Positions 2,858 through 52,195 of a stretch of 64,000 nt of DNA are shown here, one piece after another. Source of the stretch: Mycolicibacterium sp. MU0053 (GTDB taxonomy: Bacteria; Actinomycetota; Actinomycetes; Mycobacteriales; Mycobacteriaceae). Position 1 is the first letter of the stretch; each line of letters begins with the position of its first letter. The stretch spans positions 4,836,001-4,900,000 of the forward strand of contig NZ_OY726397.1 of NCBI RefSeq assembly GCF_963378095.1. The letters are read 5' to 3'. The position numbers were made by a program, and so were the translations under genes. Below the pieces are notes generated by a model, which was given only the letters and a program-made list of their open reading frames with translations, was not told the DNA's origin and did not search any database.

Positions 2858-2884
2858 GTGACACTTGTCCCGTGTTTTGTAAAG
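2858..2884 (-). promoter_or_regulatory. 27-bp regulon element, copy A (CTTTACAA-N13-TGTCAC)
   Basis: Read on the minus strand this is CTTTACAA, 13 bases, TGTCAC, followed by GCTCG. It ends 36 bases before the NIPSNAP-like/P450 operon start and also lies 26 bases before the divergent SMP-30 gene. TTTACA and the CACGCT that follows are 17 bases apart, so the element could double as a weak -35/-10 pair. The exact spacing and flank recur at six other places in this window. Confidence 0.7.
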
Positions 2885-2909
2885 GTAGACGGGCCGGGTC
2901 GAGGCAACC

Positions 2910-3731
2910 GTGCTGACAGTGACTCCATTGGCCAACGGTTTCTGCTTCGGCGAGGGCCCACGCTGGTTCGAAGGACTGCTCTGGTTCTCCGACATGCTCG
3001 GCGAGGCCGTGCACACCGTGACACTGGGCGGGGCCATGACCACCCTGCCCGTCGAGGGGCACGCGCCATCGGGGCTGGGGTTCTGCCCGGACGGCTGCCT
3101 GCTGGTGGTCTCCGGCGAGAAGCGGCAGGTCCTGCACTATGACGGCGAGGACGTCACCGGGTTCGCCGACCTGTCGGAGCTGGCACCGGCGAACCTGGGT
3201 GACATGGTGATCGACCCGCTCGGGCGCGCCTATGTCGGCTCCCAGGCCCGCTCCGGCGGGGTGATCATCCGCGTCGATCGCGACGGCAGCGCCCGGGTGG
3301 TCGCCGAGGATCTCGACTTCCCCAACGGCATGGTGATCACCGCCGACGGGTCGACGCTGATCGTCGCCGAATCGGTGGGGCGTCGGCTCAGCGCCTTCAG
3401 CATCGACGCGGCCGGGGCCCTGCACGACCGCCGGGTCTTCGCCGACGGTCTGGGTGCCCCACCGGACGGCATCGCGCTGGACGCCGAGGGCGGCGTCTGG
3501 ACCGCGATGACCCTGGGCTGCCGATTCGACCGCATCGAGGCCGGCGGCGCCGTCACCGACAGCATCGACATGGGCGAGCGCACCGCGATCGCATGCACGC
3601 TCGGCGGGCCGGAGCGCCGCACGCTGTTCCTGTTGTCGAGCACCGACGCCTATCCGGAGCGCCTGATCGGCACCAAGAACTCGCGCCTCGACGCCGTCAC
3701 CGTCGACGTCCCCGGGGCGGGATGGCCCTGA
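2910..3731 (+). CDS. SMP-30/gluconolactonase-family protein
   Basis: 273 residues forming a calcium-dependent beta-propeller of the SMP-30/gluconolactonase/LRE family, which typically hydrolyses lactones. Diagnostic segments are FGEGPRWFEGLLWFSDM near the N-terminus, DFPNGMVITADG near residue 137 and PPDGIALDAEGGVW near residue 186, which supply the conserved acidic and asparagine metal ligands. It starts at GTG with a GAGG five bases upstream. Its stop overlaps the ATG of the thioesterase gene by one base. It is divergent from a P450 operon across an 87-bp control region, so it may open a lactone formed in that pathway. Confidence 0.85.
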   Translation: MLTVTPLANGFCFGEGPRWFEGLLWFSDMLGEAVHTVTLGGAMTTLPVEGHAPSGLGFCPDGCLLVVSGEKRQVLHYDGEDVTGFADLSELAPANLGDMVIDPLGRAYVGSQARSGGVIIRVDRDGSARVVAEDLDFPNGMVITADGSTLIVAESVGRRLSAFSIDAAGALHDRRVFADGLGAPPDGIALDAEGGVWTAMTLGCRFDRIEAGGAVTDSIDMGERTAIACTLGGPERRTLFLLSSTDAYPERLIGTKNSRLDAVTVDVPGAGWP

Positions 3732-4540
3732 TGTCGGACTGCTACTACGAACTTCTCGACAGCGACCCCGACGGCGAGCGATTCGCCCCCACCGATCTGG
3801 TGCGCAGCACCTGGTCGGCGAGCATCCAGCACGGCGCGCCGGTCTCCGCGCTGCTGACCCGCGCGCTGGAGCGCTGCGCGCAGCGCGAGGACACCCGCCT
3901 GAGCCGGGTGGTGGTGGATCTGCTGGGCGCCGTTCCCGCCGAGGGCGACTGCTGGGTGCGGTCGCGGGTTGAGCGCAGCGGCAAGCAGATCGAGTTGGTC
4001 AGCGCCGAGATGCTCGGGCCCGGACCCGACGGCACCCCGCGTCCGGTGGCGATCGCGACCGGTTGGCGCATCCAGAAACTCGACACCGAAGCGCTGCTAC
4101 ACGCGCCCGCCGAGCCCATGCCGCCGCTGTCGGCGGCCAAGGCCCGCGACATGCGCAAGGACTGGGACCGCAACTACGTGCACAGCCTGGACTGGCGCTG
4201 GCTCACCAAGCCGTTGAATGAGGGACCCGGCGAATCCTGGATCAGGCCGCTGGTGGACCTGGTCAAGGGCGAGACCATGACGCCGCTCCAGCGGCTGTTC
4301 ACGGTCGCCGACGACGCCAACGGCCTCGGCAACAAGCTGGACATCCGCAAGTGGACGTTCATGAACACCGACCTCGCGGTCCACATCCATCGGGTGCCGC
4401 AGGGGGAATGGACCGGCATCCGCGCCGAAACCAGCTATGGCCCCGACGGCATCGGCGCCACGCTGGGCACGCTGTTCGACGAGCAGGGCCCAGTGGGCGC
4501 CATCGCGCAGTCCGTCCTGGTCCGCCCCCGCCCCCGCTAA
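3731..4540 (+). CDS. Acyl-CoA thioesterase-like protein (two hot-dog domains)
   Basis: 269 residues resembling the actinobacterial thioesterase family with an N-terminal and a C-terminal hot-dog domain. Supporting segments are the N-terminal FAPTDLVRSTWSASIQHGAP, the central WIRPLVDL, and the C-terminal GPVGAIAQSVLVRPR typical of TesB-like proteins. The start is ATG at 3731, sharing its A with the stop of the SMP-30 gene; an in-frame ATG at 3722 is the alternative. Translational coupling with the lactonase suggests release of a CoA thioester in the same catabolic route. Confidence 0.78.
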   Translation: MSDCYYELLDSDPDGERFAPTDLVRSTWSASIQHGAPVSALLTRALERCAQREDTRLSRVVVDLLGAVPAEGDCWVRSRVERSGKQIELVSAEMLGPGPDGTPRPVAIATGWRIQKLDTEALLHAPAEPMPPLSAAKARDMRKDWDRNYVHSLDWRWLTKPLNEGPGESWIRPLVDLVKGETMTPLQRLFTVADDANGLGNKLDIRKWTFMNTDLAVHIHRVPQGEWTGIRAETSYGPDGIGATLGTLFDEQGPVGAIAQSVLVRPRPR

Positions 4541-4556
4541 CCCCCTCACCCCTCAC

Positions 4557-4620
4557 CGCGAGCGGGCGTGTCCCCGGCCGACACGCCGGCCAAAACCCCG
4601 GGTCTGCGCACGCTCGCGCG
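4557..4620. repeat. 64-bp structured intergenic repeat, copy 1
   Basis: This stretch matches positions 26891-26954 at 58 of 64 bases. It is framed by CGCGAGCG and CGCTCGCG, which are mutually inverted, and contains an inner inverted pair GGCGTGT/ACACGCC. It lies between the converging ends of the thioesterase and P450 genes, as does copy 2 between other converging genes, so a bidirectional terminator or exported-RNA hairpin is plausible. Confidence 0.75.
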
Positions 4621-4652
4621 ACACCGGTCGCACACCGGTCTGACTGAAGGCC

Positions 4653-5909
4653 TCACTGAATGTGGGCGGGCACCCGCTTCACGCCGTGCACGAAGGTGCT
4701 GTACAGCAGGTCGGGTTCGCCGAACTCCACCTTCTTGAGCCGAGTCAGCAGCTCGCGGAACAGGTTTCGCAGCTCTGCCTTGGCCAGTTGACTGCCCAGG
4801 CAGAAGTGCGGGCCGCCGCCGCCGAAACCCAGATGAGGGTTGTATGAACGGGTCAGTTCGAATGCGCCGGGGTTGTCGAACACGGCCTCGTCGCGATTGG
4901 CCGAGCAGTAGAACAGTCCGACCTTGTCGCCGGCCGCGATGGTCTGACCGCCCACCTCGACGTCCTCGGTGGCGAACCGGGCGAACTGCATGACCGGGGT
5001 GGACCACCGCACGAATTCCTCCACCGCAGGCCCGATCCGGCCCTCGAAGTCCGCCATCAACCAGTCCCGCTGCTCCGGGTTGGCCGCCAGCGCCATCATG
5101 GCGTGCGTCGTGGTCTGCTTGGTGGTGTCGTTGCCGGCCGAGGCCAACAGGATCAGAAAGGCGCCAATCTCCTCGTCGGTGAGCCGATGCCCGTCCACCT
5201 CGGCATTCACGATGCTGGTCATCAGGTCGTCGCCGGGGTTCGCGCGGCGGAACTTCGCCAGTTCGATCCCGGTGTTGGAGATCAGCATGATCTCGTTGAT
5301 GGTGTCCATGGCGCGCTCTTCCAGCGTGCTGTACTCGTCGTCGCTCATGCTGAACAACTTTTCGGCGGCCGCGGCCAACGCCGGTTGGTCGGCCTTGGGC
5401 ACCCCGAGCATGTCGGAGATCGTGAGCATCGGCAGCCGCGCCGAACACGCCGCCACGAAATCGACGTCGCCCACCCCGATCAGATCGTCGACGATCTTGA
5501 CCGCGTTGGCCTGGATCTGTTCCTCGATCCGGCGGACGTTGCGGGGGGTGAACGCCGAGCTGATCAGTTTCCGATAGACGGTGTGCTGGGGCGGATCCAT
5601 GACCAAGAAGAACGCGGCAACCTGCTGCATCTCGGCGGGCATCGGGTCCAGTGCGACGCCGCGCGCCGAGGTGAACAGTTCGGGATGACTGCTGGCGAAG
5701 ACGATGTCGGCGCGCCGCGTCAACGCCCAGAACCCCGGCTCTTCCAGCTCGAACAGGGTGGGCAGCGGTGGATGCCAGCTCAGCCCTTCGCCCTGTCGAA
5801 GCTGTGCGAACGTCTGGTCGCGAACCGCGAACGGCCGGCTCCAGAAATCGTGCGAGGTGATGTCGTGCGGACTGTACTCACGTGCCTGTGCGGCGCTGGC
5901 GACCGTCAC
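4653..5909 (-). CDS. Cytochrome P450
   Basis: 418 residues. I-helix LASAGNDTTK, K-helix EFVR and the heme loop FGGGGPHFCLG (Cys370) identify a class I bacterial P450. The GTG start at 5909 is preferred over upstream ATGs because AGGAGGGAGG lies just before it and because a longer reading would place the regulatory element at 5962-5988 inside the gene. It is divergent from a TetR gene, and the 235-bp gap holds two oppositely oriented copies of the 27-bp element. The heme loop resembles that of sterol or terpenoid-oxidising mycobacterial P450s, but the substrate cannot be assigned. Confidence 0.93.
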   Translation of the reverse strand: MTVASAAQAREYSPHDITSHDFWSRPFAVRDQTFAQLRQGEGLSWHPPLPTLFELEEPGFWALTRRADIVFASSHPELFTSARGVALDPMPAEMQQVAAFFLVMDPPQHTVYRKLISSAFTPRNVRRIEEQIQANAVKIVDDLIGVGDVDFVAACSARLPMLTISDMLGVPKADQPALAAAAEKLFSMSDDEYSTLEERAMDTINEIMLISNTGIELAKFRRANPGDDLMTSIVNAEVDGHRLTDEEIGAFLILLASAGNDTTKQTTTHAMMALAANPEQRDWLMADFEGRIGPAVEEFVRWSTPVMQFARFATEDVEVGGQTIAAGDKVGLFYCSANRDEAVFDNPGAFELTRSYNPHLGFGGGGPHFCLGSQLAKAELRNLFRELLTRLKKVEFGEPDLLYSTFVHGVKRVPAHIQ

Positions 5910-5961
5910 TGGATGCCTCCCTCCTGGCCGCGGCGCGACGGCGGCGACTCCGGACATCAGC

Positions 5962-5988
5962 GTGACATTTACCCTCAAATTTGTAAAG
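5962..5988 (-). promoter_or_regulatory. 27-bp regulon element, copy B
   Basis: On the minus strand it reads CTTTACAA-N13-TGTCAC followed by GCT. It ends 53 bases before the GTG of the P450 and points at it. It is paired with copy F, 61 bases away in the opposite orientation and facing the TetR gene. Confidence 0.7.
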
Positions 5989-6049
5989 ACTGCGTGCGAT
6001 TGCCTCCGCGACTGGCGGCTTGCCATTTTCAGTGATCCGCCCCGCAGGC

Positions 6050-6076
6050 TTTTACAAGCGACCTAAGCTTTGTAAC
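6050..6076 (+). promoter_or_regulatory. 27-bp regulon element, copy F (variant)
   Basis: It reads TTTTACAA-N13-TGTAAC on the plus strand, with the same 13-base spacer and two substitutions from consensus. It points at the TetR gene 69 bases downstream, which suggests autoregulation of that TetR together with control of the divergent P450 through copy B. Confidence 0.6.
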
Positions 6077-6144
6077 GTTAGATGTTTCGCGGGCGGTTCG
6101 CCCCGCAACAGCAAAGGCAACGTCGACCGGCGAGGGGGTTTCCC

Positions 6145-6693
6145 GTGGAGGAAACGACGTTGCCCGGCCGCGATGATCCCGACGTCGAGGGAAGTTCGTC
6201 GCGGCAGCGGATCCTGCGCGCCACCGCCGAGGTGCTGGCCCGCAACGGGCAGACCAAGCTGAGCCTGTCCGAGGTGGCGGCGCAGGCCGGCGTATCCCGA
6301 CCCACGCTCTACCGGTGGTTCGCCTCCAAGGACGAACTGCTCACCGCGTTCGGCGCGTACGAGAAAAAAGGTTTCGACGACGGGATCATCGGTGCCACCG
6401 CGGGATTGCGCGGCACCGATCGCCTCGACGCGGCCTTGCGCTACATCGTCTCGTTCCAGCAGTCCTATTCCGGCGTGCGCATCATCGATGTCGAACCGGA
6501 GGCGGCGATCTCCCGGATCGCGCGCGTCATCCCGGTGATGCGCACGGGGCTGCAAAGCATGCTGCCCGGGCCCAACGGCGCCGAGAAGGCCGCGACCGCG
6601 GTGCGGGTTGCGGTGTCGCACTACATTGTTCGCAGTGATGACGCCGATCAGTTCCTGGCGCAGTTACGTCACGCCGTCGGACTCAGGCCCTGA
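6145..6693 (+). CDS. TetR-family transcriptional regulator
   Basis: About 182 residues from a GTG preceded by GAGGGGG; an upstream ATG at 6082 would add 21 residues without a convincing ribosome site. The N-terminal helix-turn-helix covers roughly residues 20-65 with the recognition helix AGVSRPTLYRWFASK, which is identical in the TetR at 46977. The C-terminal ligand domain is also closely related (DRLDAALRYIV, SHYIVRSDD). It is divergent from a P450 and has a 27-bp element on each side of the gap, making it a good candidate for the factor that binds this element. Ligand unknown. Confidence 0.88.
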   Translation: MEETTLPGRDDPDVEGSSSRQRILRATAEVLARNGQTKLSLSEVAAQAGVSRPTLYRWFASKDELLTAFGAYEKKGFDDGIIGATAGLRGTDRLDAALRYIVSFQQSYSGVRIIDVEPEAAISRIARVIPVMRTGLQSMLPGPNGAEKAATAVRVAVSHYIVRSDDADQFLAQLRHAVGLRP

Positions 6694-6713
6694 CCCGCAC
6701 CGGCAGGCGTCGG

Positions 6714-7904
6714 TCAGCGGGCCGGTTTCGGCGCTGAGTAGTTCGGCTTGCCCAATCCCAGGATGTGCGTGGCGATCATGTTGCGGAACACCTCCAGGGT
6801 GCCGCCGTAGATGCCGCACGGTCCAGCCAGCCGGTAGACGTATTCGGCGGCGCCGTCGTCGATCGCGCCGGGGGTGTCCGCGGGCAGCAGCGCGGCGGTG
6901 CCGAGGATGTCCATCAACTCCGGTGCCACCTCCCGCATGGCGGTCACGTTCGCGACCCGACCGAACATCTCCGGGGTGCTCAACGCCGCCTCCATCCGGG
7001 CCACGCTGCGCCCGAGCCGGTATTGCACCGCCGGATCATCGATCCGGCGGCCGCCATCGGGACCTCCGGCACCCACGATCGCCGCCGCCCGGTCCACAGC
7101 CTCCGCCATCAGCAGCGCATGTTCGGACATCATCGAGATCTTCTGCAGACCCTGCGAGTCTGGTTCCATCACACCGTGTTCGGCGTCCAACGCCACCCGC
7201 ATCACAGACCAGCCGCCGTTGACCTCTCCGATGCGGTAGCGGTCGTCGACCCGCACATCGCTGTAGTAGACGATGTTGGTGCGGTCGCCGTCGACGGTCC
7301 GCAGCCCCTGGATCTCGATGCCCGGGGTGTCGAGCGGAACCAGAAACATCGTCAGGCTCTGGTGCTTGGGCGCCGCCGGGTCGGTGTTGGTGAGCAGGAA
7401 GACGTACTGCGCATGCTGCGCATTGGAGGTGAACATCTTGGCGCCATTGATAATCCAACCATCGCCGTCGCGCACCGCGCGGGTCTTGCACGTCGCCACA
7501 TCGGAGCCGCCCTCGGGTTCGGTGTAGCCCAGGCACAGCCGGATGTGACCGGACAGCACTCCGGGCATGACCTCCTCGAGGATGTCCGCGGCGGCGAACT
7601 TGGCCACCAGGTGGGCCACCATCGCCGTCGTGCCCCAGTGGAACCACGGCGTGTGCGCGCGTCCGATCTCCAGATCCCAGATCCGGCGGCGCAGCCGGCT
7701 GAAGCCGCCGTCGCTCTCGTCCTTGAAGTCGGCGGCCAGCAGACCCTTGGCGCCCAACGCCAGGTGGACATCCTCGTCGAAGTTGTCTCCGGTCTCGCGG
7801 TCCCGCCGGATCACGTCGTCGGTGACGAGCTCGGTCAGGCAGGTGCGCAGTTCCGCTTGGAACGCCTGATCGTCGTCCGACAACGCAACGCGGGAAAAGT
7901 CCAC
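6714..7904 (-). CDS. Acyl-CoA dehydrogenase
   Basis: 396 residues of the FAD-dependent acyl-CoA dehydrogenase family, which oxidise an acyl-CoA to the 2-enoyl-CoA. The FAD/substrate segment is YTEPEGGSDVATCKTRA, followed by GWIINGAKMFTSNA. At the C-terminal position where classical enzymes have an EGTxE motif, this one reads IYGGTLEVFRN, so the usual catalytic glutamate is replaced by Tyr and the base may be elsewhere. The GTG start follows GGAGGACGA; a longer ATG start at 7922 is possible. Regulon element copy C lies 40 bases upstream. It is divergent from the DUF427 gene. Confidence 0.88.
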   Translation of the reverse strand: MDFSRVALSDDDQAFQAELRTCLTELVTDDVIRRDRETGDNFDEDVHLALGAKGLLAADFKDESDGGFSRLRRRIWDLEIGRAHTPWFHWGTTAMVAHLVAKFAAADILEEVMPGVLSGHIRLCLGYTEPEGGSDVATCKTRAVRDGDGWIINGAKMFTSNAQHAQYVFLLTNTDPAAPKHQSLTMFLVPLDTPGIEIQGLRTVDGDRTNIVYYSDVRVDDRYRIGEVNGGWSVMRVALDAEHGVMEPDSQGLQKISMMSEHALLMAEAVDRAAAIVGAGGPDGGRRIDDPAVQYRLGRSVARMEAALSTPEMFGRVANVTAMREVAPELMDILGTAALLPADTPGAIDDGAAEYVYRLAGPCGIYGGTLEVFRNMIATHILGLGKPNYSAPKPAR

Positions 7905-7943
7905 TCGTCCTCCGTGCTCCAACCGAATCCGCCACCTGCGAGC

Positions 7944-7970
7944 GTGACAGTGTTTGCCGGAGTTGTAAAG
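7944..7970 (-). promoter_or_regulatory. 27-bp regulon element, copy C
   Basis: On the minus strand it reads CTTTACAA-N13-TGTCAC followed by GCTCGC, the same right flank as copies A and D. It ends 40 bases before the acyl-CoA dehydrogenase start and lies 59 bases before the divergent DUF427 gene. Confidence 0.7.
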
Positions 7971-8028
7971 CCCGCGTTAGGCTGGCGGCCATGCCGGACC
8001 AACCGTGGAATCACCTGGAGCCAGCGCG

Positions 8029-8736
8029 ATGAGCCTGGTGGCGGGCCGCGGACCGTTCGGCAGCGATCCGGCAGGGTGGTTCTCGGCCCCGGTACCGGCC
8101 GACATCGTCTTCGTCGAACCCCACCCGCGCCGCGTGCAGGCCCTCCTGGCCGGCCACAGCGTGATCGACACCGAGCACGCGCTGTTGGTGCATCGCCTCG
8201 GCCGCCCACTGAGCTACGCCTTTCCGGAGGCCGAAACCACCGGATTGCCAAGCGAACCCGTACCCGAGGCGCCCGGCTACGTGTCCGTGCCGTGGGAGGC
8301 GGTCGACACCTGGCTCGAAGAGGACCGCCAGCTGGTGCACTACCCGCCCAACCCGTATCACCGCGTCGATTGCCGGCCCACCCGGCGCGGGCTGCGGGTC
8401 CGCGTCGGCGACACCACGCTGGTGGACACCACGACCACCACGATCGTGTTCGAGACCTCGCTGGCGCCGCGGCTCTACGTGGACCCGGCGCTGGTGCGCA
8501 CCGATCTGCTGCATCGCACCGCCACCACGAGCTACTGCAACTACAAGGGCTACGCGACGTACTGGGGCGCGACCTTGCCCGACGGCAGCGCCGTCGAGGA
8601 CATCGCATGGAGCTACGAGGATCCGCTGCCCGAATCGCTGCCGATCAAGGGGTTCCTCAGCTTCGACGCCGAGCGGGTGGAGATGCTGGCCGAACTGCCC
8701 GACGCCGGCGGCGGCGATTGCGGCTGCCCGACGTAA
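8029..8736 (+). CDS. DUF427 domain protein (tandem)
   Basis: 235 residues. Two copies of the DUF427 fold are suggested by repeated beta-rich segments: one around residues 50-100 (DTEHALLVHRLGRP) and one around 110-215 (GDTTLVDTTTTTIVFET, then TTSYCNYKGYATYW, which holds the family's YCxYKG signature). No enzymatic function is established for the family in general. The C-terminus ends in a Cys pair (GGGDCGCPT). ATG at 8029 has GGAG eight bases upstream. It is divergent from an acyl-CoA dehydrogenase and may share its control region. Confidence 0.82.
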   Translation: MSLVAGRGPFGSDPAGWFSAPVPADIVFVEPHPRRVQALLAGHSVIDTEHALLVHRLGRPLSYAFPEAETTGLPSEPVPEAPGYVSVPWEAVDTWLEEDRQLVHYPPNPYHRVDCRPTRRGLRVRVGDTTLVDTTTTTIVFETSLAPRLYVDPALVRTDLLHRTATTSYCNYKGYATYWGATLPDGSAVEDIAWSYEDPLPESLPIKGFLSFDAERVEMLAELPDAGGGDCGCPT

Positions 8737-8959
8737 CCAATTCGCGACCTGAGCGCGGGTGTGTCGCAGGCGCGCGGCACCGCGCCCAGTGCTGAGATTG
8801 CAGGATGTCAGCGGTGGCGAGCGCGCGGTCGGCGGTCGGTGCCGCCGGCCCGGGTGCCGTTCACGACATGCACTGCAGTAACAAATCCGCGATGATCTGC
8901 GACTTTCCTGGTAGTTCGGCCGGTTCATTACGATCGGTGATTCTGGGTACGGCGAAAGG

Positions 8960-9724: not shown

Positions 9725-9737
9725 GCCGCGCGGCGTT

Positions 9738-9763
9738 GTTTGGCCCCCTCGATGGGCGGGCAT
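9738..9763 (+). promoter_or_regulatory. Possible SigF-type promoter (weak)
   Basis: GTTT, 16 bases, GGGCAT lies just before the DUF5709-like gene. The -10 differs from the SigF consensus GGGTAT at one base. The implied transcript would start only a few bases before the ATG at 9773. Confidence 0.3.
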
Positions 9764-9772
9764 CCGGCAGGA

Positions 9773-11241: not shown

Positions 11242-11244
11242 CTC

Positions 11245-12108: not shown

Positions 12109-12117
12109 GGCCGACGC

Positions 12118-12142
12118 ATACCCCGGCTAAAGCCGTCCAAAC
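12118..12142 (-). promoter_or_regulatory. SigF-type promoter of the SDR gene
   Basis: On the minus strand GTTT at 12142-12139 is followed by 15 bases and GGGTAT at 12123-12118, matching the mycobacterial SigF pattern GTTT-N15-17-GGGTAT. Transcription would begin roughly three bases before the ATG at 12108. Confidence 0.55.
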
Positions 12143-12153
12143 CGGCGCGGTGC

Positions 12154-18762: not shown

Positions 18763-19359
18763 GTGGGTCAAGCCGCAGCCGACGCCGCGACTGCGGACGC
18801 CGACCATTCGCGCCAGGACACCCGGCAGCGCCTGATCGACGTCGCGGTCGAACTCTTCATCCGGCACAGCTTCGCGGGCACCTCGCTGCAGATGATCGCC
18901 GACGAGCTCGGCTTCACCAAGGCGGCCATCTACCACCACTTTCGGACCCGCGAACAGTTGCTCTACGCGGTCGTCGGACCCATGTTGGAGCGGCTCAAGA
19001 CCGTCATCGCCGAGGCCGAGAAGCTGCGCGGCGCCAACGCCCGCGCGGACTATCTGCTCACCGGGTTCGCCGAGCTGGCCGTGGAGAATCGGGTGGTGGC
19101 GGTCCTGGCCACCGACCCCGCCGTCGCCAAGATGCTGCGCGCAAGCGAGTGGGACGAACTCATCCAACGCCAGATGGCGCTGCTCGCCGACGTCGACCCC
19201 GGTCCGGCCGGCCTGGTGAAGGCCACCATGGTGTTCGCCGGTGTCGCCAGCGCCTCCGGCCCGATGTCCGCCACCCTCGGCCGCGATGAACTGCTGGGCT
19301 ATCTGGTCGACACCGGTCGCCGTGCCCTGGGTCTGCGCGCGCCCCGCCCCAAGCCCTGA
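18763..19359 (+). CDS. TetR-family transcriptional regulator
   Basis: 198 residues from a GTG preceded by CAGGAGG at good spacing. The helix-turn-helix spans about residues 20-66 with recognition segment LGFTKAAIYHHFRTREQLL. It differs from the other two TetR proteins in the window and has its own palindromic operator beside it. Adjacent SDR gene starts 41 bases downstream, probably in the same transcript. Inferred role: repressor of the divergent P450-ferredoxin operon and of itself. Confidence 0.9.
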   Translation: MGQAAADAATADADHSRQDTRQRLIDVAVELFIRHSFAGTSLQMIADELGFTKAAIYHHFRTREQLLYAVVGPMLERLKTVIAEAEKLRGANARADYLLTGFAELAVENRVVAVLATDPAVAKMLRASEWDELIQRQMALLADVDPGPAGLVKATMVFAGVASASGPMSATLGRDELLGYLVDTGRRALGLRAPRPKP

Positions 19360-41332: not shown

Positions 41333-41343
41333 GACGCAACACG

Positions 41344-42915: not shown

Positions 42916-42940
42916 CTTCGGTGACGAGAGGGGATTGGCG

Positions 42941-43726: not shown

Positions 43727-45219
43727 ACATCTTCACCATGCTCGACCGGGCCGCGACCCGCTACCCCGACGAGGGCGCGCTGTATCTCGGCGATCGCTGC
43801 GTGGTGTCCTGGCGCGAGTTGCGGGAGCGCGCGCTGCGATTGGCCGCCTCGATTCGGCGCAGCGCCGCACCCGGTACCCGGGTCGCGGTGGCCAGCGAGA
43901 ACCGGCCGGAGATCGTCGAGTTGATGTTCGGCATCTGGGCCGCCGGATGTGTCTTTGTCCCAATGAATTTCAAGCTGCACCCGCGCGAGATGGCCGACAT
44001 CCTCAGCGACTGCGAGGCGGCCCTGGTGGTTGCCTCGCCGAAGCTCGCCACCGCCCTGGCCGCGCACACCGGGATCGCGATCGACGTGTTGGACAGTCCG
44101 GCGTACCGGGACCGCTTCGACTGTCCGCCGATGAGTCCGGCCGACGTCGCCCCGGACGCGCTCGCGTGGTTGTTCTACACCAGCGGCACCACCGGCCGGT
44201 CCAAGGGCGCGATGCTCTCGCACCGCAACCTGACCGCGATGACCGTCGCCCATCTGGCCGATATCGACGATCCGGACCAGGGCTGCAGCCTGGTGCACGC
44301 CGCGCCCATGTCGCACGGCTCCGGCCTGTACATCCCCGCCTATGTGCTACGCGGCGCCCGACAGGTGGTACCCGCCTCCGGCGCGTTCGACGCCGACGAA
44401 TTCCTGGACCTGTGCGCCGCTCATCCCGGCTGCACCGCGTTCCTGGCCCCGACGATGGTGCAGCGGCTGGTCGATACCGGCCGCTCGGCGCCCGACGCGC
44501 TGCGCAGCATCATCTACGGCGGCGGCCCGATGTATGTCGAGAGCCTGAAACAGGCGTTGGCCGCGTTCGGTCCGATCTTCGCCCAGATCTACGGCCAGGG
44601 CGAATCCCCGATGACCATCACCGGTCTGCGCCGGGCCGATCACGAGTGCGGTGACGATGCGATCCTGGGCTCGGTCGGTGACGCTCGCTCGGGCGTCGAG
44701 GTGGCGGTGCTACGGCCCGACGGCACCCGGGCCGATCCGCACGAGATCGGCGAGATCGTCTGTCGCGGCGACGTGGTGATGACGGGGTACTGGAACAACC
44801 CGGCGGCGACCGCGGAGACGCTGGCCGGCGGTTGGCTGCACACCGGCGACCTCGGTTCCTTCGATGAGCACGGCTACCTGACCCTGCGCGACCGCTCCAA
44901 GGACGTCGTCATCAGCGGTGGCTCCAACGTCTACCCCCGCGAGGTCGAGGAGGTGCTGCTCGAACACCCCGAGGTTCGGGAGGCCTGCGTCGTCGGGACA
45001 CCCGACGCCGAATGGGGCGAGGCGGTGGTGGCTTTCATTGTGGGCGAGGCGGATCCGAGGTCGCTCGACGCGTACCTGCTGGAGCGCATCGCCCGGTTCA
45101 AACGACCCAAACGGTATCTGTTCGTCGAGGACCTGCCCAAGAACAGCTACGGCAAGGTACTCAAACGTGCACTCCGGGCCCGCCTGAGCTCGGAACCGGT
45201 TACGGGCCCGAATACCTGA
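43723..45219 (+). CDS. AMP-forming acyl-CoA ligase
   Basis: 498 residues. FYTSGTTGRSKGAMLSH is the phosphate loop, IYGQGESPM the A5-type motif, LHTGDLGSFDEHGYLTLRDRSKDVVISGG the hinge region, and LPKNSYGKVLKR carries the adenylation lysine. The GTG start overlaps the SDR stop; an ATG at 43711 is the alternative. Last gene of the divergent operon. Its end overlaps the converging 181-aa gene by 20 bases. A second ligase implies that two different acids arise in the pathway. Confidence 0.88.
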   Translation: MNIFTMLDRAATRYPDEGALYLGDRCVVSWRELRERALRLAASIRRSAAPGTRVAVASENRPEIVELMFGIWAAGCVFVPMNFKLHPREMADILSDCEAALVVASPKLATALAAHTGIAIDVLDSPAYRDRFDCPPMSPADVAPDALAWLFYTSGTTGRSKGAMLSHRNLTAMTVAHLADIDDPDQGCSLVHAAPMSHGSGLYIPAYVLRGARQVVPASGAFDADEFLDLCAAHPGCTAFLAPTMVQRLVDTGRSAPDALRSIIYGGGPMYVESLKQALAAFGPIFAQIYGQGESPMTITGLRRADHECGDDAILGSVGDARSGVEVAVLRPDGTRADPHEIGEIVCRGDVVMTGYWNNPAATAETLAGGWLHTGDLGSFDEHGYLTLRDRSKDVVISGGSNVYPREVEEVLLEHPEVREACVVGTPDAEWGEAVVAFIVGEADPRSLDAYLLERIARFKRPKRYLFVEDLPKNSYGKVLKRALRARLSSEPVTGPNT

Positions 45220-45745
45220 CACCGCCGGCGAAGAAGCGTTCGGTGCGGGTGGCCGCAGCCGGGGCGGATGCCATTACGAGGGCACGGCTCTTGAACGCAT
45301 GCGCTGCCGCGGTCAGCCGGTGCTCGACGACCGTCGTCGCGGTGTCGACCGTGGCCGGCAACGCCGCGCCCCAGAACGTCACCTCGGTGCGGCCGCGACG
45401 CAAGGCCGAGACCACCTCGCGGCTGATCCGCAGGTCCCGGGCGAACATGTCCGAGGACACCGCGAGCGCTTCCGGGCGGCGGCTGTCGGCTGCCGCCGGG
45501 CGCAACGCCGTCTCGAGGTCGAACACCCGGGCACCCACGATCGACAATGGTCGGATGTCGCCGGGCTCCGCCAGCAGCACGTTGACTTCCCAGCCTGCCA
45601 TCACGCGGTCGAACAGCCAGCCGCCCGAAGCCGAGACCGCGTCGAGCACCGAGGAGGCCACCACGTTGAGCTGGTACTTCAGCGAATCCTCGCCGGGGAC
45701 CCCGCCGAGGGTGAATTCGTCATGCTCCAGGGTCGCAGATGTCAC
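45200..45745 (-). CDS. Conserved-looking protein of unknown function (181 aa)
   Basis: I do not recognise a family. The protein is soluble, without signal peptide or membrane helix, mixed alpha/beta by composition. Distinctive segments are LKYQLNVVASSVLDAVSASGGWLFDRVMAGWEVNVLL near the N-terminus and FARDLRISREVVSALRRGRTEVTFWG in the second half. Two copies of the 27-bp element lie upstream, one (D) 43 bases away and pointing at the start, so it is probably a member of that regulon and may be regulatory itself. Confidence 0.75.
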   Translation of the reverse strand: MTSATLEHDEFTLGGVPGEDSLKYQLNVVASSVLDAVSASGGWLFDRVMAGWEVNVLLAEPGDIRPLSIVGARVFDLETALRPAAADSRRPEALAVSSDMFARDLRISREVVSALRRGRTEVTFWGAALPATVDTATTVVEHRLTAAAHAFKSRALVMASAPAAATRTERFFAGGVRYSGP

Positions 45746-45787
45746 TGGAAACCTCCGTGTCGGCGTGCTGAGCTCCGTCCCACGAGC

Positions 45788-45814
45788 GTGACAGTTTTAT
45801 CGAGATATGTAAAG
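45788..45814 (-). promoter_or_regulatory. 27-bp regulon element, copy D
   Basis: On the minus strand it reads CTTTACAT-N13-TGTCAC then GCTCG, the same right flank as copies A and C. It ends 43 bases before the ATG of the 181-aa gene. Confidence 0.65.
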
Positions 45815-45845
45815 GCTCGATTTGGCCACAGCGGGCGCGTCGCCT

Positions 45846-45872
45846 GTTTACAGTTCGACGCTTGGCTGTCAC
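45846..45872 (+). promoter_or_regulatory. 27-bp regulon element, copy G (variant)
   Basis: It reads GTTTACAG-N13-TGTCAC on the plus strand with the invariant spacer. It faces away from copy D, 31 bases from it, and has no plus-strand gene downstream, so it looks like a partner site rather than a promoter. Confidence 0.5.
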
Positions 45873-45897
45873 AGGTGGAGCAGGGCCGTCCGGTGCC

Positions 45898-46326
45898 TCA
45901 GGCGAGCGCCGAGGACAGGTCGCCGATCCGATCGAAGCGCATCCGGACGGTGGTCCCGTGTGCCGAGCAGTCGATGACCACCTCGTCGGCGAGGGCTTCC
46001 ATCAGCGGAATGCCACGCCCGCGCAGCTGCGGATTGCCCGCGTCGGTGGGTTCACGCCAGGCACCCTCGTCGGTCACCGTGACCGCCAACGATCCGTTGG
46101 TCGGGTCGCAGGCCGCGGTCAGGGTGACAGATCCCGGCTCACGCTGGTGCCGGTACGCGAACTCTGCGGTGTTCGCGAGGGCCTCGTTGACCGCCAGCAC
46201 CAAATCGTTGTGCCGGTAGGTGGCGAGACCGAATTGGCGCAGCCAGCGACCGAACTCTTCGCGAAGACGGCCGACGCTCAGGGCATCGGCGGTTTCGCTG
46301 CGGTGGTGGGACTCGGCTGCGGGCAT
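45898..46326 (-). CDS. Anti-sigma factor kinase (RsbW/SpoIIAB-like ATPase)
   Basis: 142 residues of the GHKL ATPase fold. The N box is AVNEALANTAEFAY, the G1 box VTDEGAW, and the G2 region LRGRGIPLMEALAD. Such kinases phosphorylate an anti-anti-sigma protein and sequester a sigma factor. It follows the STAS gene by 33 bases on the same strand, the usual partner order. No sigma factor gene lies beside the pair, so the target must be encoded elsewhere; SigF is the usual mycobacterial partner. Confidence 0.88.
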   Translation of the reverse strand: MPAAESHHRSETADALSVGRLREEFGRWLRQFGLATYRHNDLVLAVNEALANTAEFAYRHQREPGSVTLTAACDPTNGSLAVTVTDEGAWREPTDAGNPQLRGRGIPLMEALADEVVIDCSAHGTTVRMRFDRIGDLSSALA

Positions 46327-46359
46327 GTCGGAAGTTGGGTTACCCGTTTTCGCTGGCCA

Positions 46360-46743
46360 CTACGCCGCCAGCTTTTCCAACGCCTCTTCCAGCGTTGTGT
46401 ATACGTCAACGATGTCGGCGACGCCGACCAATTTCAGTGGCCGACCGGTGACCGGACCGTCGGCGACCACGGCGAACCGGACGCCCTCGGGGACCTGCTG
46501 GTTGGCGGCGATCAACACGCTCATCCCGGCGGAGGCGAGGAACTCGACGTCAGTAAGGTCCACCACCAGTGCCGCCGGCTTCTGCACCAGCGCCGCCGCG
46601 ATCCGCTCTTCGAGCTTGGGCGAGGTCAGCATGTCGACGGTGCCGGCCGCGGAGACCACGGCGACCCGATCGAACCACTTCTCCTCGACCACGCACTCCG
46701 GCGGCAGGATCACGTCGTCGGTGATGTTCGTTTCTTCTGGCAT
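46360..46743 (-). CDS. Anti-anti-sigma factor (STAS domain)
   Basis: 127 residues from an ATG preceded by GTGAGG. The STAS domain covers residues about 24-125, and the phosphorylation region reads DVEFLASAGMSVLI, with Ser71 the candidate. An N-terminal tail of about 20 residues is extra. Upstream lies an inverted repeat at 46757-46778. It should release a sigma factor by competing for the downstream RsbW-like kinase. Confidence 0.88.
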   Translation of the reverse strand: MPEETNITDDVILPPECVVEEKWFDRVAVVSAAGTVDMLTSPKLEERIAAALVQKPAALVVDLTDVEFLASAGMSVLIAANQQVPEGVRFAVVADGPVTGRPLKLVGVADIVDVYTTLEEALEKLAA

Positions 46744-46756
46744 CAGGCACCTCACT

Positions 46757-46778
46757 GTAATCGCACTCTGCCGATTAC
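46757..46778. promoter_or_regulatory. Inverted repeat upstream of the STAS gene
   Basis: GTAATCG, eight bases, CGATTAC lies 14 bases before the STAS ATG and could be an operator. The rest of the 233-bp gap to the TetR gene shows nothing I can name. Confidence 0.45.
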
Positions 46779-46976
46779 GTCACTCACGTTGCAAGGCTTC
46801 GGGCTGAACCTGGCATGGTCGTCTCGAGAAGGATACTGCCCTGCTCACGACGGCCTGGCGGCTAGGGCGCAACGCCCGGGCGTTCCGGGTGTTGCAGCCA
46901 ACCACAACCGCTTTACCTCTACGATCTGGTTCATCATACGTACATCGCACCAACCGACCCGGGTAGGACCTGCGCA

Positions 46977-47534
46977 GTGAACCGACCTAGCACCACCACC
47001 GCTGCGGTGGATGCCGTCGACGACAACTCGACGCGGCAGCGAATTCTGGCCGCTACCGCCGAGGTGCTGAGCCGCAGCGGGCAGACGAAGCTCAGCTTGT
47101 CGGACGTGGCTCAGCAGGCCGGGGTGTCCAGGCCGACCCTGTACCGGTGGTTTGCCTCCAAGGAGGCGCTGCTCGATGCGTTCGCAGTCTACGAGCGGCA
47201 GATGTTCGACACCGGGGTCAGCCGCGCGACCGCGGAGTTGCGCGGTTCCGACCGCCTCGATGCGGCACTGCGGTTTATCGTCGACTATCAGCACTCCTAC
47301 TCCGGGGTGCGCGCGGTGGACATCGAACCCGAGGTGGTCATCGCCCGGTTGTCCCAGGTCATCCCGGTGATGCGGGCCCGGCTGGAACGCCTCCTCAGCG
47401 GACCCAGCGCGCAGGTCAAGGCAGCCACCGCGATCCGCGTCGCGGTGTCGCACTACATCGTCCGCAGCGACGACGACGACGGCTTCCTCGACCAGTTACG
47501 GCACGCCGTCGGCATCAAGCCCACCAGCAGGTAG
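46977..47534 (+). CDS. TetR-family transcriptional regulator (paralogue of the one at 6145)
   Basis: 185 residues from a GTG. The recognition region LSDVAQQAGVSRPTLYRWF and the following ASK match the 6145 protein almost residue for residue, and the C-terminal domains share DRLDAAL, SYSGVR and AVSHYIVRSDD. The two are clear paralogues 41 kb apart and should bind similar operators. No copy of the 27-bp element lies directly upstream of this gene; the nearest are at 45.8 kb. Confidence 0.88.
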   Translation: MNRPSTTTAAVDAVDDNSTRQRILAATAEVLSRSGQTKLSLSDVAQQAGVSRPTLYRWFASKEALLDAFAVYERQMFDTGVSRATAELRGSDRLDAALRFIVDYQHSYSGVRAVDIEPEVVIARLSQVIPVMRARLERLLSGPSAQVKAATAIRVAVSHYIVRSDDDDGFLDQLRHAVGIKPTSR

Positions 47535-47549
47535 TCGGACGCGGCGCCG

Positions 47550-48425
47550 TCAGCTGATGATGACGGCGCCGCCGAACATGTCCAGCAGGACCCCGGTTCG
47601 CCACCACACCAGAGCCACGAACACCACCAGGAACGCCGCGGTCACCGTGGCCGCCACCGCGGTGCGCTGCTTGGCGGGGGCGTAGACGAAGGCTGCGGCC
47701 ACCAGCGCGCCCGTGATCAATCCACCGAGGTGGCCCTGCCAGCTGATCGCGCCCGCGCCGGCCAGCGGCGCCACGAACGTGATGACCAGGTTCAGCCCGA
47801 TCAAGATCACCACGCCTCGGACGTCGAGGTTCAGTCGGCGGCCGATCACGAAGGCCGCACCGAACAGGCCGAAGATGGCGCCCGAGGCCCCGGCGGTCGC
47901 GGTGTTGAGCGGCGACAGCAGATAGACCAGCAACGAACCGCCCAGCGCGCTGAGGCCGTAGAGCAGCCCGAACCGCAGCCGCCCGAGGGCCAGCTCCAGC
48001 TGGGGACCCACCACGTAGAGGGCCAGCATGTTGAACAGGATGTGCATGGTGCCGTAGTGCAGGAAAGCCGACGTGACCAGCCGGTAGACCTCGCCGTCGG
48101 CGACCGCCGGCGGCCACAGGGTCAATTCGCGCTCGAGCTGACCGGAGGCCATTTGCAGGACGAACATCACCACGTTGATGCCGATCAGCGTCCAGGTGAC
48201 GATCGGCTTGCCGGAGCCGTGCCACCGACCCCCCAGTGCGGTGCGGGGTTGGCGCACGCTGGCCGCACCCGCGCGCACGCAGTCCACACACTGCTGCCCG
48301 ACCGCGGCCGACCGCATGCAATCGCCGCAGGCATAACGCTGGCAACGGTTGCACCGGACATAGGTGGTGCGGTCGGGGTGCCGATAACAGACCGGCGTCG
48401 ATCCCGGTGCGCTCGGGTAACTCAT
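47550..48425 (-). CDS. Rhomboid-family intramembrane serine protease with N-terminal zinc-binding domain
   Basis: 291 residues. Residues 13-49 form a cysteine-rich B-box-like module (C13, H16, C25, C28, C33, C36, C46, C49). Six membrane helices follow from about residue 75. The catalytic pair is Ser181 (GASGAIFG) and His232 (GHLGG), with Asn132 in the HILFNM segment. The combination is common in actinobacteria. ATG at 48425. Substrate unknown. Confidence 0.92.
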   Translation of the reverse strand: MSYPSAPGSTPVCYRHPDRTTYVRCNRCQRYACGDCMRSAAVGQQCVDCVRAGAASVRQPRTALGGRWHGSGKPIVTWTLIGINVVMFVLQMASGQLERELTLWPPAVADGEVYRLVTSAFLHYGTMHILFNMLALYVVGPQLELALGRLRFGLLYGLSALGGSLLVYLLSPLNTATAGASGAIFGLFGAAFVIGRRLNLDVRGVVILIGLNLVITFVAPLAGAGAISWQGHLGGLITGALVAAAFVYAPAKQRTAVAATVTAAFLVVFVALVWWRTGVLLDMFGGAVIIS

Positions 48426-48504
48426 GCCAATAACGTACTTGGGCGCTGCCCCGCACATCGTCGGGCGAGGGCACCGGCGAGGCGGTGTTCTGCCCGGCGC
48501 CGAA

Positions 48505-50760
48505 CTAGGTCTCCGACTCGTCCGATTCCGACGCCTCGACCAGCAGCGCCATGCCGTGATGCGGGGGCATCTCGACGGCGAAGCTGTGCAGATCGTCCAC
48601 CGTCGCGAATGCGTGGCCGCTGAACATGTCCGAGACCGTGGACCCGGGCGGCAGCGTGTCGGAACGCACGGTGCCGGCAATGGGCTCGTCGGCGAAGTTG
48701 AGCACGGTGAGCTGGTACTGCTGCGGATTCTCGAGTTGATGGACCATCACCAGCATGGCCCGGTGCGACACCTCCGGGATGTCGATCTGCCGGCTGGTGG
48801 CGATGCCGTAGTGCGCCCGCACCCGCAAGATCGCCTGCAGCTGCCGCAGGAAGCTGGTCTCGTCCGCCAGCTGATCCGGAATCGACCCGTAAAGACTTCT
48901 GCCCCTCGGCATTCCGGCCATCGACTGGGTCGCGGTGGGGTTGACCCCCATCAGGTCGTGCGCGGCGCGGTGGATCCAGCGGGTGTCGCCGAACCGCAAC
49001 AGTTCGGCGACGTCGTCGACCGGCAATGTCAACATGCCGCACAGGTCCCAGCCGGACAGCGCGAACACGCCCGGCTGCAGCGCGTTGAACATCGCCAACA
49101 GCAGATGGGCGCGACGCACCCGGTCGACGTCGTCGGGGTCCTGAAGGTCGTCGAGAGCGCTGAAACCGAGCGTGGCGGCGATCAAAGATGCGGTGGTGCA
49201 GGCGATCCCGTTGGTGGTGAAGACGCGGTTGTACGGCGCATTGTCGCCGGTGAGCTTTTCGATCAGGTCCCCCCGGACGATCTCGCCGAGTTCCTCGCCG
49301 GTGACCTCGGCGGACTTGTAGGTGAAGCGGTCGTCGCGGTGGCCGGCGGACCAGTGCACCAGCTCATAGGTCAGCTCGTCGTGGTTCTGCAACGCATGCA
49401 CCAGCGACGCCGGATCGACGCCGAGCTCCAAGGTGGTGCGCAATGTCAGCCGCAGAAACTCGGTGTCGGCCATGGCGAAGGCGTGCTGATAGGCGGGCCG
49501 GTTGATGAAATCGTAGGACAGGTCGGCGCCGGCCTCACCGATCTGCCGGATGTCGTCGATGGTCAGATTCAGTTCCTGGAAGGTGAACCCGCCGAGTTTG
49601 CGCACCATGCTGGCGATCAGGTGGTTGGCGGCTTCGGACAGCGGGTGTCCCTCCGACCATCCCGGGTTGTCGTCGGCGGCCGTCTTCTCGGCACCCAGAA
49701 AGCCGTTGGCGTCCAGCCGCAGTCCACCGGTACCGAGGTCGGTCAGCGAGTGCAGGGCATCGCCGATCACCAGGCGCATCCCGGCGAACGACGGGTCCAG
49801 CCAGTTGATCGACGGCTGCCCGTCCTTGAAGTAGTGCAGATACACCCAGCGGCGCTCGACCCCGTCGACCCCGAGCACCGGGCGGGTCACGCTCCAGTTG
49901 GTCTCCTTGACGCCCTCGGCGTAGAAGATCACCCGCTGCAGGCGGCCGATGATGTAGCCGGCCTTGTCCAGCCAGTCCTCGCAGGCCGCATCGATGTTGA
50001 CCGAATCGGCGCCCACCGGCACCGCGGGCAGGTGCTCCCAGTCCCGCGGATCGATCTCGACCATGTGATAGATGCCCGGATAGTCCGCGTACTTCATCTC
50101 GGCGAGCCGGAAGTCCGCGCCCTTGCCGGTGTGGCCGGGCACGATGTCGTCGATGATGGTGCCGCCGTACCAGTTGGCCGTGCCGCACAGCTGCCGGAAA
50201 TCGTCCTCGGTGCCGAAGGCCGGGTCTATCTGGGTGCTGATCCGGTCGAAGTGCCCGTCCACGCTCGGGGTGTGGGTCCATCCGGAGATGCCGCCGGCGC
50301 GTTTCACCGGGCCGGTGTGGACGCCCTCGATGCCGATCTCGGCGAAGGCCTTCCACATCGCCTCGTCGGCCATCGCCTTGAGGAAGGACTCATCGGACCG
50401 GGTGATCAGCGAAAGCGGGTAGGCGGTGAACCACACCGAGGCGGTCTCGACGGCACCGCGCGGCATGGGCGTCGCGTACGGGTTCTGCCACATCGAGCCC
50501 TGTCCGGAGAACTGCTGGCTGATCGTGTTGGCGTCGGCCAGCATCGACTGGGAGAGCAACCAGGACACATAGGCCGGGTTGCCCGCGAACGGAGAGCCGT
50601 CCTGCGCGATGGACTTCCGGGTGAACGACGCCTTGACCCGCGGCCGATACCGCAGCGTCCGCGGACGGGCGGGATGCAGGTGTTCGTCGAAGGTGAGCTC
50701 GGGGGTTTCGCTGTGCTGCTCCGGTTGCTCGCCGGGCACCGACTCCACCGGTTGCGACAT
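48505..50760 (-). CDS. GH13 alpha-amylase-superfamily enzyme (trehalose-synthase-like)
   Basis: 751 residues. The GH13 catalytic residues appear as Asp350 (GLRLD, nucleophile), Glu396 (FQELN, acid/base) and His460-Asp461 (QNHDELT), with region I near DDIVPGHTG (205-212). The size, the QNHDELT region and an N-terminal extension resemble trehalose synthase or maltosyltransferase-type enzymes rather than simple amylases, but the 40-residue Pro/Glu-rich N-terminus and region I are atypical. It likely rearranges or transfers alpha-glucosyl units in storage-sugar metabolism; exact reaction uncertain. Confidence 0.85.
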
Positions 50761-50904
50761 CGAACCCCTTCCGTGTGGTCAGACCGAACCGCGTATTCCA
50801 CGAGCCTACGGACGGGGGTCCCCGTTGCCGTGCGTGCCCGTTGCTGCGAGGTCAGTATTGCCACGCCGGTCGAACGCCGAAACCCGGGCGTCCACGGCGA
50901 TCCG

Positions 50905-51726
50905 CTATTCGGCGCTGCCCATCGCTTCGGCGATGGCCGCGGCCAGGAACGAGACGGCCTGGTTGCGGCTGACCGACCCGAGCAGTTGCGCCGCCGCGCG
51001 CATGTCGTCGCCGACGAAGACCGTAGGTCCCTCCTTCAGGCTGGCGAACGCCTCGGCTACCACGGACGAGACCTCGACAGCGCCGGGCGGGGCGTGGTCC
51101 TCGGCCGCGATCTGTCCGCGGCTGTATTCGAGGCGTCGCAGCGCCGGGGTGTTGGTCTTGCCCAGGATCAGACCCACGACGTCGACCCCGGCTGGGTTCA
51201 ACTCGGTCCACAAGGCCTCGGCGAAGACCATGTCGAAGGCCTTGCTCGCGGAGTAGGCGACCATGTTGGGTCCACCGGCCAGGCCGGCCCCCGAACCGAA
51301 GATCACGATGCCGCCGCGGCCACGTTCCACCATCCCGGCGGCGTAGTGATGGCACAGCCGCAGCAGCGTGACGCAGTTGCGCTGCACCATTGCCACCGCG
51401 GCGTCCGCCGAGGTGTCGAGGAAGGGCTGGAAGGCCGGATCGGCCCCGGCGCAGTAGACCAGAAATCCGACCGCCAGGTCCTCGGTGGCCGCAATGATCT
51501 GTGCCGCAGCGTCGTCGGCCGCGAGATCAACCGCCAGCGTGCGGGTTCGGACTCCGGTGCGCGCGGCGATGCCGGCCGCCACCTCCTCGAGTACGGCCGC
51601 GCGCCGCGCCAGTAACACCACGTTGATTCCGCGTTCGGCCAGTCCTTCGGCGAATGCGGCGCCCACTCCGTCGGAGGCGCCGGCCACCACCGCCCACGGC
51701 CCGTACTCGTCGGCGAAGGTGCTCAC
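50905..51726 (-). CDS. Short-chain dehydrogenase
   Basis: 273 residues. AGASDGVGAAFAEGLAERG binds the cofactor, VYCAG replaces the NNAG motif, and the active site has Ser in FGSGAG and YSASK. The GTG start overlaps the stop of the SnoaL-like gene (GTGA). The 144 bases upstream of the next gene to the left hold no recognisable signal. Confidence 0.86.
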   Translation of the reverse strand: MSTFADEYGPWAVVAGASDGVGAAFAEGLAERGINVVLLARRAAVLEEVAAGIAARTGVRTRTLAVDLAADDAAAQIIAATEDLAVGFLVYCAGADPAFQPFLDTSADAAVAMVQRNCVTLLRLCHHYAAGMVERGRGGIVIFGSGAGLAGGPNMVAYSASKAFDMVFAEALWTELNPAGVDVVGLILGKTNTPALRRLEYSRGQIAAEDHAPPGAVEVSSVVAEAFASLKEGPTVFVGDDMRAAAQLLGSVSRNQAVSFLAAAIAEAMGSAE

Positions 51727-52136
51727 GCGCCACCGACCGGGCTGACCCGCACCGTCGTGAAGCGGCGCCGGGCAATTCGCCAGCCGTCGCCGGTGCGCGC
51801 CAGGTCGTCGTCGTAGCACCCGACCGCGTTGACCCCGGATTGATTGTCCTGCGACAGGATCAGGGCGTCCACATAGGCGCGCGCTTGGGCCCGATCCCCG
51901 TCGACGGTGACGACGATATTGCTCAACCGGTGCAGCGTGTGGCCGGCCATGGCGTGGGTCTGTGTCATGAAATCGGTGACCGCGTCGACCCCTTTCCACG
52001 CCCCGATCTCGCCGTAGTCGAGTTCGCAGTCGGCGGTGAAAACCGTTCGGAACAATGGCCAATCCCGGCGGTCGATGCCGGTGGCGTATCGGATCAGGAC
52101 ATCGGCGATGTCCCGGTGGTCATCGGTCTGTGCCAT
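51723..52136 (-). CDS. SnoaL-like/NTF2-fold protein
   Basis: 137 residues, a cone-shaped alpha+beta barrel of the SnoaL or ring-hydroxylating-beta-like superfamily. The N-terminal IADVLIRYATGIDRRDWPLFRTVF and the central GHTLHRLSNIVV are typical. Members act as small isomerases, cyclases, dehydratases or non-catalytic subunits. GGGAGG six bases before ATG 52136. It is translationally coupled to an SDR and divergent from the molybdopterin oxidoreductase. Confidence 0.85.
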   Translation of the reverse strand: MAQTDDHRDIADVLIRYATGIDRRDWPLFRTVFTADCELDYGEIGAWKGVDAVTDFMTQTHAMAGHTLHRLSNIVVTVDGDRAQARAYVDALILSQDNQSGVNAVGCYDDDLARTGDGWRIARRRFTTVRVSPVGGA

Positions 52137-52168
52137 GACGGCCTCCCGTTCGTACGGACGCAAGCAGG

Positions 52169-52195
52169 CTTTACAACTATCGCTACCAGTGTCAC
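52169..52195 (+). promoter_or_regulatory. 27-bp regulon element, copy E
   Basis: It reads CTTTACAA-N13-TGTCAC on the plus strand and ends 52 bases before the ATG of the molybdopterin oxidoreductase, pointing at it. The divergent SnoaL start is 33 bases to the other side. Confidence 0.7.

Follow-up and report, generated by a model that had tools for sequence, protein, structure and literature searches.

A 32-bp inverted repeat beside catabolic-type genes in Mycolicibacterium sp. MU0053 as the probable operator of a TetR family regulator

The locus and copies of the element

The DNA considered here, referred to as the window, is a stretch of 64,000 nucleotides from Mycolicibacterium sp. MU0053, covering bases 4836001-4900000 of its 5.45-Mb genome. 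It holds several copies of an element whose exact core pattern is CTTTACAA-N13-TGTCAC. The copies lie next to genes for P450s and other catabolic-type proteins, and the window also encodes two paralogous TetR family regulators, TetR1 and TetR2, that we propose as binders of the element (Table 1). The window was compared with 80 named loci, the nearest by TetR1, which were chosen by their TetR gene and not by the motif and whose record titles read Mycobacterium, Mycolicibacterium or Mycobacteriaceae. A further 19 fetched loci completed the set in which sites upstream of genes were counted. Element 1 separates the NIPSNAP-like/P450 operon on the minus strand from the SMP-30/gluconolactonase-like (SGL) and thioesterase genes on the plus strand. 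Divergent intergenic stretches of this kind, with NIPSNAP-P450 facing SGL-thioesterase or a P450 facing TetR, were the common setting of the sites in the 20 loci whose layouts were printed (the window, 10 named loci and 9 fetched loci).

Table 1. Features of the window. Coordinates are window positions; symmetry is the number of the 18 symmetric palindrome positions that match; PWM, position weight matrix score.
Feature	Coordinates	Strand	Remarks
P450 open reading frame (ORF) behind the NIPSNAP-like gene	874..2250	-	longest ORF; start codon tentative
NIPSNAP-like protein, first gene of the element 1 operon	2112..2822	-	E 6.1e-4, 20.4 bits, just below the Pfam cut-off of 22.3
Element 1, 32-bp palindrome	2855..2886	-	exact core; 17/18; position kept in relatives
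SGL protein	2910..3731	+	other side of element 1
Acyl-CoA thioesterase-like protein	3593..4540	+	longest ORF
P450 behind element 2	4653..5912	-	closest solved structure CYP268A2 (6bld, E 3.5e-128)
Element 2	5959..5990	-	exact core; 16/18; upstream of CYP268-like P450 (-), divergent from TetR1
Element 3	6048..6079	+	2 core mismatches; 14/18; PWM -3.1; upstream of TetR1
TetR1, proposed binder	6145..6693	+	182 aa; one TetR_N (Pfam), E 8.6e-14; GTG start behind Shine-Dalgarno-like GAGGGGG
Acyl-CoA dehydrogenase behind element 4	6714..7922	-	longest ORF
Element 4	7941..7972	-	exact core; 17/18; between acyl-CoA dehydrogenase (-) and DUF427 protein (+)
DUF427 protein, other side of element 4	8005..8736	+	longest ORF
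181-aa protein behind element 5	45200..45745	-	without matches in Pfam or NCBIfam at E 0.001
Element 5	45785..45816	-	1 mismatch; 16/18; upstream of 181-aa protein (-); site also at related genes in relatives
Weak copy	45844..45875	+	2 mismatches; 12/18; PWM -8.8; no gene start downstream
TetR2, paralogue, second proposed binder	46977..47534	+	TetR_N, E 9.6e-14; element 5 and the weak copy lie about 1.1 kb away
Element 6	52167..52198	+	exact core; 16/18; upstream of molybdopterin oxidoreductase (+)
Molybdopterin oxidoreductase behind element 6	52205..54481	+	alternative ATG 52247 after Shine-Dalgarno-like GGGGAGGAAA

An earlier note had listed seven copies of the core, always with a spacer of 13. 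The exact core was found at four of these places (2858, 5962 and 7944 on the minus strand and 52169 on the plus strand), which are its only matches in the whole genome, and 100 shuffles of the window gave none. The copy at 45788 (minus strand) has one mismatch to the core, and those at 6050 and 45846 (both plus strand) have two each. All seven were recovered with the looser pattern TTTACA[ATG]-N13-TGT[CA]AC, which had no matches in the window at spacers of 5-12 or 14-23. The count of seven therefore stands for the looser pattern, with three imperfect copies among them. The copy at 45788 looks genuine, and the weak copy at 45846, unsupported as a real site by its symmetry, its score and the lack of a gene start in front of it, is probably degenerate or non-functional.

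Elsewhere in the genome the symmetric pattern described below is scarce. Allowing up to 2 mismatches, it occurs at six places, five of them in the window and the sixth at 2505343, between a minus-strand ORF and an aldo/keto reductase gene. Allowing up to 3, it occurs at 13 places versus 7 for the reversed control. One of the places gained is 4831331, to the left of the window at a distance of 4.6 kb, where the gene downstream encodes a protein that matches Polyketide_cyc2 weakly.

The position of the copies relative to genes depends on the start codons chosen. All are intergenic, as the same note had it, if the preferred starts are used, but the longest ORFs at 2112-3425 and 4653-6026 would cover the copies at 2858 and 5962. 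With crude gene calling, 125 of 160 sites were intergenic and 35 fell inside calls, the calls covering 95% of the bases there; those of the 35 that were viewed, by eye, looked like over-extended gene starts. The distance of 33-69 bases from six copies to a start codon held for four preferred starts (35 nt at 2858, 49 at 5962, 68 at 6050 and 42 at 45788), and the two other starts are ambiguous, at 21 or 39 nt for the acyl-CoA dehydrogenase and at 9 or 51 nt for the molybdopterin oxidoreductase.

Spacing and symmetry

Comparison of spacer lengths had been named beforehand as the test that could refute the element, and the element clearly withstood it. In a genus survey of 148 genomes, the exact pattern with spacer 13 gave 322 matches in 114 genomes, its reversed control matched in 2 genomes, and spacers of 14-24 pooled gave 6 matches, no more than the reversed control of that search. 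Spacers shorter than 13 were covered in the window and the 80 named loci; in the latter, 114 of the 115 matches found at spacers of 5-23 have a spacer of 13 and one has a different spacer. A family survey of 301 genomes was run with TTTACAA-N13-TGTCACG, which is one base longer on the right and one shorter on the left, and matched in 29 genomes (27 of the 29 of the own genus and both genomes of genus g20), all of which carry the TetR.

The description as two halves at a fixed spacing had missed the symmetry. In full, the halves belong to an inverted repeat of 32 bp, AGCKTKACA-N14-TGTMAMGCT, which has its centre at that of the element and can act towards both sides. The consensus, A-G-CTTTACAAA...AAGTGTCACGCT, was derived from 164 unique sites with at most 1 mismatch in the 80 named loci. 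Because these sites were chosen by their core letters, only the outer bases (A and G before the core and G, C and T after it) count as an independent part of the dyad, which takes some weight from the argument by symmetry. The PWM was likewise built from sites preselected by core letters, and its source sites score at least 23.0; PWM scores obtained for loci of minus-strand matches are not considered.

The interiors vary between copies while the half-sites are kept. This variation, the absence of matches in shuffles and the ratio of 322 to 6 by spacer already contradict an origin of the copies by chance similarity or as a mobile repeat, to which the three imperfect copies might point and which we regard as negligible. 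The element is real, far beyond chance.

A block, GGTGYCACTGTCAAC (window 2835-2849, minus strand), follows element 1 and repeats TGTCA, and similar blocks were seen by eye after sites of other gene families in relatives; blocks of this type might contain additional half-sites or a signal at the 5' end. At ecdysteroid-kinase-like (EcKL) genes (L122 6819-7919 and L072 6758-7897) the element is more symmetric, reading TTTACAA...TTGTAA or similar. A sister pattern, CGATACAAA or GATTACAAA followed at the same spacing by TGTCAA/T, was found near position 1501 of loci L030 and L031 and at 613837, 628122, 4695499 and 4706937 of the genome. It possibly marks a related regulon; near the L031 copy lies an ORF (627432-627572) that matches TetR1 weakly.

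Association with TetR1 relatives

TetR1 and TetR2 are 69% identical over the aligned part and are the only two TetRs of this kind in the genome, the next best match having 31% identity. Residues S51-R57, in the recognition-helix region, are invariant in 53 diverse aligned TetR copies. A relative of TetR1, defined by an E value of 1e-20 or better, was found in 123 of the 148 genus genomes. The exact motif was present in 114 of these 123 and in none of the 25 genomes lacking the TetR (Fisher p 4e-21, a statistic that ignores relatedness).

In the family survey, 38 of the 301 genomes carry the TetR, and 9 of the 38 lack the motif (2 of the own genus, 5 of g23, 1 of g11 and 1 of g24). The g24 carrier has a 15/18 site beside its TetR. 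Genera g23 and g11, whose TetRs are 47-57% identical to TetR1, offer the most stringent test. When about 10.5 kb was scanned at each of their six loci, the best palindrome was every time the one immediately upstream of TetR, with its start 65-82 nt ahead of codon 18. The argument rests on this shared position and not on the score, since the palindromes reach 13-17/18 and five base shuffles per stretch peak at 12-15.

These observations, sequence comparisons throughout, support the two paralogous TetRs that had been named as candidate binders. They also bear on the possibility that another regulator of the cluster, and not this TetR, binds the element. The P450 and other cluster genes track the motif as well, and co-occurrence alone cannot separate TetR from them, a point that tells against singling out TetR1. 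However, the gene shared at the g23 and g11 sites is the TetR; the gene set searched yielded P450 relatives of just 30-36% identity in these genera and none at the g11 locus. We therefore consider binding by another cluster regulator very improbable.

A third TetR family gene (18763-19359) stands beside a P450 and, by eye, a short ferredoxin-like ORF; no element within 3 mismatches was found nearby, and it has no close match to TetR1. Beside TetR2, the stretch 45898-46755 encodes an RsbW-like protein (HATPase_c_2) and one resembling an anti-sigma antagonist.

Start codons and a putative two-way promoter

The distance from the palindrome end to an in-frame start codon was taken for the gene sides of sites of at least 15/18 (n=218). 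The distances peak at exactly 6 nt, with 78 of the 218 sides against 19 for the next highest value; after thinning of similar copies the peak remains, at 31 of 109 sides against 7. The 6-nt starts belong mostly to TetR (46/65) and P450 genes (29/51), the other three being a single gene each of molybdopterin, kinase-like and thioesterase-2 type, and none was found at SGL (0/24), NIPSNAP (0/21) or acyl-CoA dehydrogenase genes (0/3). At 41 of the 78 sides there is no other in-frame start in the searched range, and the 6-nt spacers comprise 45 different sequences. A Shine-Dalgarno-like stretch precedes 2 of the 78 six-nt starts versus 40 of 94 far starts. Among 74 divergent sites, 18 have a 6-nt start on both sides. 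The window molybdopterin gene is counted among the 78, though a leaderless start is not claimed for it given its Shine-Dalgarno-led ATG at 52247.

If transcripts began at these start codons, the far half-site would fall at the -35 position, where it reads GTGACA in 46 cases and TTTACA in 32, each matching TTGACA at 5 of 6 positions. This geometry supports a putative overlap of operator and promoter. The suggestion of a regulon in which the element works as a regulated promoter, or as an operator lying over a promoter, is backed by the co-occurrence, by the site upstream of TetR in distant genera and by the position of the start codons, as far as sequence can tell.

We favor, with a probability of about 0.8, a model where the element is the operator of TetR1, with its paralogue TetR2, embedded in the core promoters that it controls, so that genes on both sides would be repressed. 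In either direction, the far half-site would serve as the -35 hexamer (TTTACA or GTGACA), followed after 17 bp by the near half-site as an extended -10 (TGT + CACGCT or AAAGCT), and RNA would start 7 nt past the palindrome end, in many cases right at the start codon, giving a leaderless transcript. Bound TetR would keep RNA polymerase from transcribing the genes to either side, its own gene included in many loci, and a pathway substrate or acyl-CoA intermediate might release it. The motif with its spacing and symmetry, its co-occurrence with the TetR, the surrounding genes and the distances to start codons are observations; we infer binding by TetR, promoter function, repression and the ligand, as well as the occupation of a site by two dimers, which is a guess. 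A more specific version is that the palindrome forms a single self-complementary module, each half-site being both the -35 of one promoter and the extended -10 of the opposite one, with two divergent leaderless mRNAs, their start codons exactly 6 nt beyond the ends, and one TetR operator switching both without any need for DNA beyond itself. To this version we give slightly less than even odds.

A number of observations weigh against the proposed operator or parts of it. Nine of the 123 genus genomes with the TetR are without an exact motif. Their loci and a similar one from the family survey make 10, among which a site of at least 15/18 was found within about 5 kb of the TetR in 4 and not in the other 6. 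TetR2 has no site of 14/18 or better upstream in the palindrome scan, and a site was found upstream of only 71 of 136 TetR matches (for this and the gene families below, a site with up to 2 mismatches, no more than 300 nt upstream; genes near locus ends may lose sites). Element 3 scores poorly with the PWM; it is fairly symmetric and lies upstream of TetR1, and is probably a real, autoregulatory TetR1 site. The centres of the half-sites, about 23 bp apart, are widely separated for a single TetR dimer. As for the promoter, a 6-nt start is missing from 140 of the 218 sides, the implied -10 hexamer lacks the T at -12, and in the window itself TetR1 and the P450 of element 2 have Shine-Dalgarno-led starts.

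The deviation of the -10 hexamers from TANNNT at -12, as can be seen in activator-dependent promoters, would also suit a model where the TetR family binds the element as an activator and lifts weak promoters. The best solved fold match of TetR1 is FasR, and FasR acts as an activator. If transcripts start where the peak implies, however, the site spans about -38 to -7, that is, the core promoter, which fits occlusion better, and many sites separate TetR from a gene divergent to it, the usual layout of an autorepressing TetR. Activation is unlikely.

The fixed spacing and the fixed distance of the start codons could also be expected of a promoter for an alternative sigma factor, conserved by contact of sigma with both hexamers. 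The sites at P450, NIPSNAP and thioesterase-2 genes have a single orientation, and the genes beside TetR2 include one for an RsbW-like kinase and one resembling an anti-sigma antagonist. Such a promoter would not be expected to show a dyad, and TetR and SGL genes have their sites in reverse orientation, so a promoter-only reading is insufficient. Moreover, the motif tracks the TetR gene across genomes, and of the 20 printed loci the window is the only one to show the RsbW-like gene, no search having been aimed at a co-occurring sigma factor. We consider a sigma factor promoter quite improbable, and a TetR operator remains the preferred explanation.

Genes behind the sites

Sites were found upstream of nearly all CYP268-like P450 matches (44/46, likewise 44/46 for an exact site), all thioesterase-2 matches (28/28) and most SGL matches (41/47). 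The proportion was lower for NIPSNAP (22/35), ecdysteroid-kinase-like (12/38) and acyl-CoA dehydrogenase matches (4/24), and both matches to the 181-aa protein had one (2/2).

Relation to known regulators

The earlier note had not matched the element to KstR, KstR2 or SigF, and this was borne out: no KstR or KstR2 motif and no SigF promoter (GTTT-N15-17-GGGTA) lies within 60 bp of the seven copies. TetR1 itself scores far below the cut-offs of the NCBIfam models for FasR, KstR and MftR. Its nearest solved relatives by profile are Mce3R (E 4.2e-12) and KstR (E 1.4e-9). Mce3R consists of two TetR domains fused in one protein; its solved chain (9b7y) has 406 residues, whereas TetR1, shorter and with a single TetR_N, matches only part of it. 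The predicted structure of TetR1 has an all-helical TetR-like fold (predicted local distance difference test score, pLDDT, 87.9); its identity with FasR is 21%, and no fold match among the 50 listed exceeds 24%.

TetR autorepressors with divergent operators share with this system the TetR_N helix-turn-helix, the predicted all-helical fold and a palindrome between the regulator and divergent catabolic-type genes. The system described here differs in its 32-bp site, in half-sites about 23 bp apart and in start codons that peak at 6 nt on either side. Operators of the QacR/CprB type are bound by two TetR dimers and resemble the element in being long palindromes. In the distant genera, the sequence of the six g23/g11 sites (L187-L192) is TTTAC(A/G)-N5-TGTAA-N4-TGTAA, in which one more TGTAA half-site, seen by eye, lies inside the palindrome, and it is this half-site together with the long span that led to the guess of two dimers. 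The inner half-site is not conserved in the Mycobacterium sites.

Significance

The analysis ties a putative binding site and a TetR family, present in 114 and 123 of the 148 genus genomes, respectively, to a set of catabolic-type genes that includes P450s, acyl-CoA dehydrogenase, thioesterases, ecdysteroid-kinase-like and NIPSNAP-like proteins. The motif is specific enough for members of the regulon to be predicted by search. If the geometry proposed for the start codons is true, the element would be a very compact two-way promoter/operator for the study of leaderless transcription.

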